From Cyclobacterium sp. SYSU L10401 (lineage in GTDB: Bacteria; Bacteroidota; Bacteroidia; Cytophagales; Cyclobacteriaceae), in NCBI RefSeq assembly GCF_010993705.1, contig NZ_WOFO01000002.1, positions 558,001 through 622,000 on the forward strand: a stretch of DNA of 64,000 nucleotides, written 5' to 3'. This document shows, one piece after another, positions 2,148 to 29,934 of this stretch (positions are counted from its first letter, which is position 1; the number at the start of each line of letters is the position of its first letter). The notes below the pieces were generated by a model, which was given only the letters and a program-made list of their open reading frames with translations, had not been told where the DNA came from and did not search any database. The position numbers were made by a program, and so were the translations under genes.

Positions 2148-3185
2148 TTATTGACCATCAATTTTCAGCTTAAAATCCCGGCTAGTTGATTTTTCTGCCG
2201 TAGGAAAATCATCTGGTATGGGTTGAGTAACCTTTCCTGTTGCCGCCCATTCCGCTCCTCTTAAAAATGAAGTAATAAAACCAACGCTTTCGATTGAAAA
2301 ATCATCATGCCCCAGGGTGGTGTGAAATACCCGCCCTTTGCCGTAGTCCAGCACCATCAGCATGGGTTCGTGCCGGTCAGTAGGGGCTTTGCCTGAAACA
2401 TCCTTTCCTGTAGCCAGTATGGTCAAGTTTTCGGCCGGTCCGCGCAATTGGGAATAGCATTCATCCTTCGTAGTTAGCCATACTTCCGGCATTCCCCTGG
2501 TGATGGGATGATCCTTTTTACGAATGGTGATGGGAAAAATATGGCTGGGTCCATGGGCACCGCCTTTCCCCGGTGAAGGATCTCGTACCAGCTCGCCTTC
2601 ATTAGTATAATACACATAAGGTCCATCTTTTTCAGTACGGTCACCCCAGCCTCCCAGGCCAATCATTTTATTGTATTCCAGCCAGTCAGGAAAGGAGTTG
2701 TTTGCAGCGTGAACGGAGACAAAGCCTCCGCCGGAGGACATATATTCTTCCAATGCTTTCTGGGTCTCGTCCGGCCAATCCGCAGCTTTCCAGCCAAAGT
2801 TGGAAATCACAACATCATAATCCTTGAACAAGGGGGAGAAATCCGGATCATGCTGAGGGTTTTCCAGATCTGTGGTTGCGCCCACTCCAGCTAATGGCAA
2901 GTACTCCTTTTCCCTTTCTGCGCCCCAGGTAAACCTGGTTCTGTAAATAGCTACCTGAAAAAGCCCCGTTTCTTCCAGGTACTGCTTCAGCATTAGGGTA
3001 GCTTTCGGCCATACCGAATGGTTGTTTTGACCGTCAACGATTAGCGCTTTCAAAGGGGCTTTTCGTTCCGGTTCATGGTAACGCTCGCTCGTGTCCATCT
3101 TATCCAGCCAGCGGGTTGTAGTTTCGAAATGACCATTTAAATTTAGTGAAAGCAAGTAGATTACAAAATAAGGAAGGAATTTCAT
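2148..3185 (-). CDS. ThuA-like domain protein, secreted
   Basis: 345 residues from the ATG at 3185, which is followed by a hydrophobic signal segment (MKFLPYFVIYLLSL). A longer frame exists upstream, but its extra 14 residues lie in repeat DNA and precede the signal peptide. The body is a ThuA-like glutamine-amidotransferase fold: KALIVDGQNNHSVW at the start of the domain, then YDVVISNFGW, a GGGFVSVHAANNSF turn, and a late GKGRVFHTTLGHDD segment. ThuA-like proteins are linked to trehalose or other sugar utilisation, but their chemistry is poorly known. Here the domain stands without cytochrome or sugar-dehydrogenase fusions. Its 5' leader is a repeat shared with the aldo/keto reductase at 28786-29745. 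Confidence 0.85.
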   Translation of the reverse strand: MKFLPYFVIYLLSLNLNGHFETTTRWLDKMDTSERYHEPERKAPLKALIVDGQNNHSVWPKATLMLKQYLEETGLFQVAIYRTRFTWGAEREKEYLPLAGVGATTDLENPQHDPDFSPLFKDYDVVISNFGWKAADWPDETQKALEEYMSSGGGFVSVHAANNSFPDWLEYNKMIGLGGWGDRTEKDGPYVYYTNEGELVRDPSPGKGGAHGPSHIFPITIRKKDHPITRGMPEVWLTTKDECYSQLRGPAENLTILATGKDVSGKAPTDRHEPMLMVLDYGKGRVFHTTLGHDDFSIESVGFITSFLRGAEWAATGKVTQPIPDDFPTAEKSTSRDFKLKIDGQ

Positions 3186-3276
3186 GTGTTTATAATTTGT
3201 TTTAATAGGCCACATGGAATCTCGCATGTTGGATAATCATTCCTCCGTGTGTCGCTTGGGACATGCTCGATTTCAT
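3183..3276 (-). repeat. Copy A of a dispersed leader-like repeat
   Basis: On the minus strand this runs from an ATGAAATCG at 3276 to the real ThuA start at 3185, with TTATAAACACATGAAAT at the gene start. The segments TCGAGCATGTC, GGAATGATTATC and GCGAGATTCCAT recur nearly unchanged in the two copies at 29743-29934. GGAAT and ATTCC flank the centre and could pair as a short stem. Confidence 0.7.
3202..3276 (-). CDS. Possible leader peptide upstream of the ThuA-like gene
   Basis: A 24-codon ORF, ATG at 3276 and TAA at 3202-3204. It begins MKSSMSQATHGGMII and ends ARFHVAY. The peptide matches the one at 29851-29934 almost residue for residue, and the length difference between them is one whole codon, which fits selection on the reading frame. 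It ends about 16 bases before the ThuA start. Translation is unproven; the likeness could simply reflect a recent repeat. Confidence 0.35.
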   Translation of the reverse strand: MKSSMSQATHGGMIIQHARFHVAY

Positions 3277-16313: not shown

Positions 16314-16402
16314 GTAAATGCTTGAGGACATTCTAAAACGAGCCGAGTTACGTAAAGACAATTATAAACATATGAAACAGCTTAGTTCTGAGAAATGCAT
16401 TT

Positions 16403-28785: not shown

Positions 28786-29745
28786 TCAGGCTTTCTCCCA
28801 GAGATCTGATTGCGCATAAGGGCTACCCGGTACCTCTGTAAAAAAGGTTCCGTCAATATACCTGTGTTTTGTTTTCAGGTTGGACATGGCTTCCATATCT
28901 GATCCATCCAACCTGATGTCTGCAGATTCCAGGTTTTGTATGATTCTATCTTTGTTTACTGATTTGGGTATAACAGCAACGTCCCTATGTAAGGACCAGG
29001 CAATTAAAATCTGAGCCACCGTTTTCCCATGTTTGTCAGCAATTTCCTGAAAAACCTGCTCTTGCATCAAGACGGGATCATTGGCTTTTTTTCTTGCACT
29101 GGGCCTGTCCGCAGAGCCGAGTGGAGAATAAGCGGTCACATTAATCTGATGGCTGCGGCAAAAGGAAACCAACTTCTGTTGAGGTAAATATGGATGCAAT
29201 TCTATTTGATTCATTTCCGGCTTAATCTCGCAAGAAGCCAGAATTTCTTCAAGTTTGCTTTGATTAAAGTTTGAAACGCCAATATGTCTCACTTTTCCTT
29301 CTTTTTTCAAAGCTTCCATTCCAGCCCAGGTTTCTGAAAGAGGCGCAGCAGCATGATCCAGAAAGTCGGCTCCTTTCTCGGGAAACATGACATGACTTCT
29401 TAAAGCCACCGGCCAATGGATCAAATACAAGTCCAAATACTCCAATTGCAGATCTGCTAAAGTTTGGTTGAAGCCTACCTGAACCTGGTCTCTTTCATGG
29501 GCATTGTTCCATAACTTGGAAGTAACGAAAACATCTTCTCTTTTAACAAGGCCATCTTTGAAAGCCTTAGTCAAGGCATCCCCAACTTCTTTTTCATTTT
29601 TGTAAACAGCGGCACAATCGATGTGCCGGTAGCCTGCCTCCAGAGCCCAAAGTACTGCCTGATAAACTTCCCCCGGGGCAGATTTCCAGGTTCCTAAACC
29701 CAACATGGGCAATTTATCGCCATTTTCAAATGTGATATATTTCAT
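28786..29745 (-). CDS. Aldo/keto reductase
   Basis: 319 residues forming the (beta/alpha)8 aldo/keto reductase barrel. The catalytic tetrad is visible: D in YRHIDCAAVYKNEKEVG, Y a few residues on, K in VTSKLWN and H in YLIHWPV. The NADPH-binding end has VIPKSVNKDRIIQN. The GLGTWKS and GVSNFNQSKLEEI motifs are typical of the family that reduces sugar aldehydes and other carbonyls. No signal peptide is present. It is the second of two tandem paralogues. Between them lie two copies of a leader-like repeat, and the stop codon of a small ORF overlaps this gene's start as ATGA. Confidence 0.93.
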   Translation of the reverse strand: MKYITFENGDKLPMLGLGTWKSAPGEVYQAVLWALEAGYRHIDCAAVYKNEKEVGDALTKAFKDGLVKREDVFVTSKLWNNAHERDQVQVGFNQTLADLQLEYLDLYLIHWPVALRSHVMFPEKGADFLDHAAAPLSETWAGMEALKKEGKVRHIGVSNFNQSKLEEILASCEIKPEMNQIELHPYLPQQKLVSFCRSHQINVTAYSPLGSADRPSARKKANDPVLMQEQVFQEIADKHGKTVAQILIAWSLHRDVAVIPKSVNKDRIIQNLESADIRLDGSDMEAMSNLKTKHRYIDGTFFTEVPGSPYAQSDLWEKA

Positions 29746-29846
29746 GTGTTTATAATTTGATTTTTAATGGTCAGATGGAATCTTTGATGATTAAAATAAT
29801 CATTGCCCTGTGTGTTTAATGATGATTTTAATCGTGTCGATTTCAT
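29742..29846 (-). CDS. Possible leader peptide translationally coupled to the aldo/keto reductase
   Basis: A 34-codon ORF from ATG at 29846 to TGA at 29744-29742. The stop overlaps the reductase ATG (29745-29743) as ATGA, a classic coupling arrangement. The peptide begins MKSTRLKSSLNTQGNDYF and later has QRFHLTIKNQ. The RFHLT core and the MKS start recur in the neighbouring copy at 29851-29934, while the middle differs. A perfect ATGATTA/TAATCAT stem lies in the middle of the ORF. Coding status is unproven. Confidence 0.4.
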   Translation of the reverse strand: MKSTRLKSSLNTQGNDYFNHQRFHLTIKNQIINT

Positions 29847-29934
29847 CTGTTTATAATTTATTTTTAGCTGTCAGATGGAATCTCGCAATGATAATCATTC
29901 CTCTGTGTGTCGCCTCCGACATGCTCGATTTCAT
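29743..29934 (-). repeat. Two tandem copies (B1, B2) of the dispersed leader-like repeat
   Basis: Copy B2 spans 29844-29934 and copy B1 29743-29846. Each unit on the minus strand begins at ATGAAATCG, holds AATGATTAT and AGATTCCATCTGAC in the second half, and ends at TTATAAACA(C/G)ATGAAAT, which is the start of the next unit or, for B1, of the reductase gene. A third copy lies at 3183-3276. The repeats fill nearly the whole gap between the two reductase genes. Confidence 0.75.
29851..29934 (-). CDS. Possible leader peptide in repeat copy B2
   Basis: A 27-codon ORF from ATG at 29934 to TAA at 29851-29853. It begins MKSSMSEATHRGMII and ends IARFHLTAKNKL. It matches the ORF at 3202-3276 closely, with changes that keep the frame. 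It ends five bases before the ATG of the next small ORF. It lies just downstream of the stop of the first aldo/keto reductase gene (29959). Confidence 0.35.
   Translation of the reverse strand: MKSSMSEATHRGMIIIARFHLTAKNKL

Follow-up and report, generated by a model that had tools for sequence, protein, structure and literature searches.

The window analysed here is a stretch of 64,000 nucleotides from Cyclobacterium sp. SYSU L10401. On its minus strand, two aldo/keto reductase genes, 52% identical to each other, are separated by a gap that is occupied by two units of 88 and 101 bp. Between 29952 and 29739 of the minus strand, the start context AAATTATAAACA-N-ATGAAAT is repeated three times with spacings of 88 and 101 nt. 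With up to three mismatches, this motif occurs at 5 places in the 64-kb window against 0.11 expected. The relevant features are as follows.

29930..29934, minus strand: ATGAA upstream of unit A, its putative target site, now the start of small ORF 1 (sequence)
29842..29929, minus strand: unit A, type A repeat of 88 bp, left end ATCGA, right end ATGAA (sequence)
29851..29934, minus strand: small ORF 1, 27 aa, MKSSMSEATHRGMIIIARFHLTAKNKL and a stop 4 nt ahead of the next ATG (sequence)
29844..29877, minus strand: right-end stem of unit A, CATCTG (29877-29872) with CAGATG (29849-29844) (predicted fold and family covariation)
29741..29841, minus strand: unit B, type B repeat of 101 bp, whose last bases, ATGAA, are the present reductase start (sequence)
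29833-29818 / 29804-29789, minus strand: long internal hairpin of unit B (sequence)
29742..29846, minus strand: small ORF 2, 34 aa, MKSTRLKSSLNTQGNDYFNHQRFHLTIKNQIINT and a stop TGA overlapping the reductase ATG (ATGA) (sequence)
29743..29777, minus strand: right-end stem position of unit B, CATCTG (29777-29772) against CACATG (29748-29743) (sequence)
28786..29745, minus strand: host gene, aldo/keto reductase, whose start codon is the ATGAA of the repeat (Pfam PF00248, E 1.5e-55)
3181..3271, minus strand: further copy in the window, type A unit of 91 bp, before another gene (MKFLPYFVIYLLSLN...) (motif match, complete copy)

Both small ORFs begin with ATGAAATCGA, read through their own unit and contain ARFHLT or QRFHLT. 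Near its left end, unit A carries the hairpin TGTCG-gagg-CGACA, whose stem is also present in other copies, and the inverted repeat GATTAAAATAATCATT / AATGATGATTTTAATC at the locus spans 16 nt with 94% complementarity. Thus the two tandem units, the small ORFs, the ATGA overlap, the inverted repeat and the flanking paralogous reductases are all present as an earlier note on this DNA had described them. Two right-end-like sequences also lie in the window. The first, AAATTATAAACAC at 29947-29935 of the minus strand, is located between the end of the upstream reductase gene and the ATGAA target of unit A and may be the remnant of the right end of an older unit. The other, AATTATAAACATATGAAA at 16360-16377 of the plus strand, stands alone without a recognisable left part and opens an ORF of 27 codons; it may be a remnant or a chance match.

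Beyond the locus, the units belong to a dispersed repeat family, mostly 88-125 bp long, with at least 84 units with distinct right ends in this Cyclobacterium genome. The catalogue of the genome was assembled by clustering pattern matches into 88 places, 86 of which were covered and were read in the sense direction, and script pairing of left and right ends gave 87 units, double calls included. It is a lower bound, as 100 of 113 right-end matches were taken in and two left ends with one mismatch were left out. The 221-bp region of the locus, used as a query, finds 25 matches in the genome (20 candidates scored), matches in all 12 genomes of the genus Cyclobacterium that were examined and in 17 of 39 relatives in all. 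A sample of 118 Cyclobacteriaceae genomes contains 47 with repeat matches, and 35 of the 84 genera sampled are represented among them. The repeat may be most abundant in two genomes of a single genus, G056 and G126, which show 313 and 282 first-look candidates (six scored in each). That the promoter and start region of the reductase was duplicated in tandem at this locus, which would explain the start context in three consecutive copies, is given almost no credence, since copies of the unit as a whole, beyond the start context, occur throughout the genome and the family.

Two types, A and B, have both ends in common and differ in their middles. Type A has the form TCGAGCATGACG-N4-CGTCACACA..., and type B the form TCGACACGATTAAAATCATCATT...AATGATTATTTTAATCG...; the core GATTCCATCTGAC occurs 35 times in the genome and 0 times in the reversed control. 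Among the 42 type B left ends listed for this genome, 33 are identical across the 21 bases searched. Of 12 genomes in the genus, four have no type B copy and the other eight have 41, 31, 16, 11, 8, 5, 5 and 3; the identical left ends and this patchy presence are taken to point to a recent spread. In addition, many units of both types (L050, L066, L105 and others) contain an extra small hairpin (e.g., TCCCGATTTAGTATCGGGACAGG) at the same internal position, as if modules had been exchanged. A match to the unit was found neither in the plasmid nor in the phage collections searched, and a plasmid or phage origin was rejected on that ground. In viral contigs, the longer repeat pattern gave a single match, within an ORF of a viral-looking contig, and the many matches of a 14-base pattern among those listed were taken as unspecific. 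A known RNA family was likewise rejected, because all 15 Rfam matches at E up to 10 lie below their gathering scores.

The position of the units relative to coding sequence is precise. The five bases ahead of the unit are ATGAA in 79 of 87 units of the genome (77 of 84 without double calls), and the last five bases of the unit are ATGAA in 86 of 87. At 48 of the 66 distinct terminal sites, the final ATGAA runs on into an ORF of at least 100 aa; at 18 it does not. For comparison, ATGAA occurs in the window 20 times at gene starts (under a rough rule that takes as start the first ATG in any ORF of 100 aa or more), 34 times in intergenic DNA, 4 of these being repeat-derived, and 185 times inside genes. 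Against the 20 of 50 non-disruptive window sites that remain after removal of the 4 repeat-derived intergenic ones, with the reductase start itself among the 20, the 48 of 66 repeat sites at long ORFs correspond to a binomial p of 7e-8. Such an excess could reflect either a true preference for start codons or selection against other landing places. A long ORF follows 21 of the 32 terminal units read at 27 further loci, most of them in other Cyclobacterium genomes; of the 11 exceptions, no fewer than 4 are false right ends. Of 40 loci in other genera, 39 have a unit; here 24 of 42 terminal units lead into a long ORF and 18 do not. In both sets, some of the exceptions are either false right ends or have a variant unit behind them.

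The host genes behind the units, which by their sequence look like argG (argininosuccinate synthase), gpmI, lspA, tatD, trkA and SusD among others, look functionally unrelated to one another. The units are not a leader private to the aldo/keto reductase of the window. In two copies of the genome (L041 and L025), small ORF and host gene share a reading frame, and about 33 residues would be added ahead of an apparent signal peptide.

Many orthologous sites are without the repeat. The upstream regions of 8 host genes were compared in up to 12 genomes, filled and empty sites being read by eye; 62 of 81 gene-genome combinations have no complete repeat and 19 are filled (L031 gene, 1/12; argG, 3/12; gpmI, 1/12; lspA, 3/12; mbl, 1/12; tatD, 5/12; trkA, 4/7; L039 gene, 1/2). 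Orthologues in sister species often share the same start with the repeat absent. In the case of gpmI, the 38 nt ahead of the ATG are identical in the empty genome G008 and the filled genome studied here, where the host's sixth base (T) follows the right ATGAA and the repeat's A follows the left one. Units at tatD differ between species, which suggests repeated insertion at one and the same start codon. Among the nine closest reductase-bearing contigs (L009-L017), all named Cyclobacterium, two (L009 and L010) have different copies of the repeat at this ATG, six sister species (L012-L017) are empty, and L011 is ambiguous, with no complete copy. Dozens of copies at unrelated starts, together with the empty orthologous sites, strongly support the proposal of the earlier note that a mobile repeat captured a start site.

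The ownership of the terminal ATGAA can be read at two exceptional sites. In a RAYT gene of G010, relatives have GATCAGGAAATGCCC, and the filled copy reads ...CAGGAA, the repeat ATCGAGC...CAGATGAA, and then ATGCCC. At C20:25430 of the present genome, a unit is located behind AAGAA, about 9 nt before the apparent native gene start, and the orthologues are without the unit. At both sites only GAA is common to the two unit ends; the left target is hence host DNA, and the last five bases are the repeat's own. A full 5-bp target duplication of ATGAA is rejected because these two sites share just GAA. A 3-bp target duplication (GAA) made by another enzyme is possible. In G010, three copies of the RAYT gene (loci L181 and L187) contain the repeat inside their 5' end, apparently copied along with the gene, and one of the three is open over its length past the repeat.

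The ORF that begins at the upstream ATG of each unit ends in a characteristic place. In 56 of 74 distinct copies, it ends in the interval from 30 nt ahead of the new ATG to 4 nt beyond it, against 26 of 74 and 0 of 74 for the other two frames; of the remaining copies, 4 run beyond the new ATG and 14 stop earlier. The stop comes more than 30 nt before the gene in 11 of the 44 distinct copies of type A and in 3 of the 30 of type B. The right end of the repeat forms an exit in each frame, namely TAA within TTATAA, TGA overlapping the ATG, or an in-frame fusion. Nevertheless, neither peptide nor frame shows constraint. Unit lengths fall into the three classes modulo 3 as 17, 31 and 39 of 87, and the frame relative to the gene is not kept. 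Furthermore, pN/pS in the ORF frame is 0.74 for type A (25 distinct cores) against 0.68 and 0.74 in the wrong frames, and 0.68 for type B (19 distinct cores) against 0.63 and 0.29, so that no purifying selection on the peptide is seen in these 25 and 19 cores. Since ORF ends cluster near the new ATG, yet peptide and frame show no constraint, it may be openness that counts and apparently not the peptide. The geometry would suit a ribosome that ends translation of the small ORF next to the gene start.

These results bear on the suggestion, also made in the earlier note, of a peptide-based attenuation specific to the reductases. The small ORF with its ATGA overlap at the window gene agrees with such a device, but units of this kind precede dozens of other, unrelated genes, 14 of 74 small ORFs stop more than 30 nt early, the orthologues in six sister species have no unit, and the selection test gave pN/pS no lower than in wrong frames. 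A conserved regulatory peptide is rejected on the last result, and attenuation of the reductases, left without support, is very improbable. The checks that had been named for the units divide: copies do exist in related genomes, and length changes break the frame relation to the gene.

Single-sequence folds of the units are weakly better than shuffles (z of -1.1 to -1.9), so the structural claim rests on covariation. The folds suggested a right-end stem formed by CATNTG and, usually 20-23 nt downstream, CANATG, the 3' arm of which includes the new start codon. In the genome, the variable pair is complementary in 61 of 78 units with the arm against 31.7 expected, mismatched in 17, and 9 of 87 units are without a recognisable 5' arm. 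Counted by distinct right ends, 42 of 58 are complementary against 21.9 by permutation. Among 55 distinct right ends from other genera that have the arm, 50 are complementary against 22.5 by permutation, using C-G, G-C and A-T pairs, and two cases combine CATCAG with CTGATG. The copies are related, and these statistics are accordingly not those of independent events. At the reductase locus, the stem of unit A is paired; in unit B the variable pair is a C.C mismatch, and the stem is absent from the predicted folds. The left stem of type A shows an A-T/T-A exchange at its middle pair and is paired in 31 of 37 units (37 of 50 units parsed). A CAT, a candidate for a guide at the foot of the left hairpin, precedes the TGACG/CGTCA stem at a set position in 38 of 50 type A units; type B lacks it there.

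The same stem invites the reading of a regulatory leader, in which the stem would hide the start codon and translation of the small ORF would open it, giving a transferable translational switch recruited by genes. The start codon does sit in the 3' arm of the covarying stem, and the small ORF, which crosses the 5' arm with its codons RFHLT, mostly stops close to the start. However, the pairing is at least as well kept in copies that are not before a long ORF (16 of 17 having an arm) as in those before one (33 of 45; p 0.09), which leans to a role in movement rather than in host-gene regulation. The pair is also broken in the very copy that adjoins the reductase, the peptide is under no visible constraint, and the host genes look functionally unrelated; a regulatory leader is therefore considered unlikely, though less so than attenuation of the reductases.

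Mobility by single-strand transposition is suggested by the resemblance to known systems. In IS200/IS605 elements, the target motif flanks the left end, an equivalent motif forms the last bases of the right end, and guides pair with both (PMC6006769). As in IS608 and ISDra2, the repeat lies 3' of a fixed short target, closes with a motif identical to it, has an internal stretch that can pair with this closing motif, and bears hairpins near its ends (PMC6006769). A covarying pairing with the right-end motif, as expected of a guide, is present in the repeat, and the pairing arm may act as a guide. The repeat differs in that no tnpA is present within it or, at the loci examined, in its surroundings, and in that its ATGAA target falls on start codons, with a start codon and a leader ORF supplied by the repeat; the available part of PMC6006769 does not mention such a start-codon target for IS200/IS605 elements. 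The likeness is one of mechanism, and membership fails at the enzyme.

REP/REPIN sequences with their RAYT (TnpA-REP) proteins, including the Bacteroidetes subclass 2.6 with atypical structures, are likewise short, non-autonomous, present in many copies, rich in hairpins and clustered; in contrast, the RAYT genes examined here are not flanked by this repeat, which is sense-oriented at gene starts and not merely intergenic. CGTC-tagged REPs, in the portion of their description available (PMC3733652), are short hairpin repeats without a dedicated transposase, with an unpaired CGTC tag and a stem of 8-9 bp. Type A resembles them in its short hairpin, its lack of a dedicated transposase and its TGACG-N4-CGTCA stem, but in type A the CGTC is paired, the stem is 5 bp and the unit is much longer. 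BrickBuilt, a MITE of Porphyromonas gingivalis, is also a small transposase-less repeat in a Bacteroidota genome; it differs in its terminal inverted repeats and target duplications of varying sequence, and the excerpt of its description (PMC4596501) reports no placement at start codons. Unlike the ends of MITEs, those of the present repeat, ATCGA.. and ..CANATGAA, do not form an inverted pair, and the inverted repeat is internal only. The Rickettsia palindromic elements are small repeats situated in frame inside proteins, and their host genes stay translatable. The Cyclobacterium repeat shares with them insertion where host genes remain translatable, and differs in lying at the start codon and in not keeping the frame. 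No published account of repeats inserting at start codons was found in the open-access papers searched.

Candidates for the mobilising enzyme were sought around Y1 genes. No Y1 gene bracketed by the repeat is present among the 77 of 94 listed Y1 matches that were examined (47/52 and 30/42); complete units are located near, not around, Y1 genes at two loci (L277 and L295), and a lone right-end-like sequence at a third (L287). Neither an enlarged autonomous copy nor a related autonomous transposon is seen among the loci of the genome that were read. For its two Y1 genes, the best identities among the Y1 loci of G011, a genome with 31 type B copies, are 36% and 41%, and no close homologue is present. 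Y1 transposase genes of the genus (L055, L056, L175, L179, L183, L185 and L186) have their own unrelated repeats nearby, e.g., TTTGGCTAAAGCCAA and GGATTTGTAATCCC. A REP of a known RAYT was rejected as an identity of the repeat, because the Y1 loci read carry other repeats. Among the RAYT genes examined, none is flanked by the repeat as its own; in G010 the repeat sits inside the RAYT gene.

Taken as a whole, the explanation that we hold to be probable is a small non-autonomous mobile repeat, IS200/IS605- or REP-like, which inserts just 3' of ATGAA, chiefly at gene starts, and leaves the host gene translatable. The repeat has many copies, a precise start-codon placement, empty orthologous sites, a 3' ATGAA that is element-borne at two sites, and a conserved covarying right-end stem, CATNTG/CANATG. 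Its geometry of target, end motif, internal pairing and hairpins, judged by analogy with IS200/IS605 and REP, suggests single-strand transposition by a Y1/HUH enzyme. As the geometry fits and no Y1 gene is bracketed, mobilisation in trans is proposed, with an enzyme probably of the Y1/HUH kind. An element that bears its own ATGAA and inserts 3' of a host ATGAA puts itself between the old start codon and the rest of the gene and provides another start codon, set in the A-rich context of the repeat (AAATTATAAACANATGAA). Simultaneously, the captured old start codon would open a short ORF ending beside the new one, and the host gene would stay translatable by coupling or by fresh initiation. Insertions at start codons may thus be tolerated because the repeat restores the start codon and passes ribosomes on, and such insertions, doing little damage, would accumulate and form tandem arrays at the same start codon. 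Both the movement and the translation of the repeat are deduced here from sequence. A wider proposal, for which we see the balance as even, is that a class of single-strand mobile repeats found throughout the family has become specialised for start codons. Such repeats would target ATGAA and bring along a start codon of their own, a guide stem that matches it and a leader ORF from which ribosomes pass to the host gene whatever its frame, and gene starts would be safe and reusable landing sites for them.

An insertion at a gene start is normally expected to be harmful, and the repeat of the Cyclobacteriaceae appears to replace what it destroys. If this holds, dozens of genes per genome would have rebuilt 5' leaders and starts, and automatic gene calls there may be misplaced. 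The mobilising enzyme would then be a sequence-specific system in effect aimed at start codons. Meanwhile, the natural pairs of empty and filled sites are available for tests of translational coupling in Bacteroidota.
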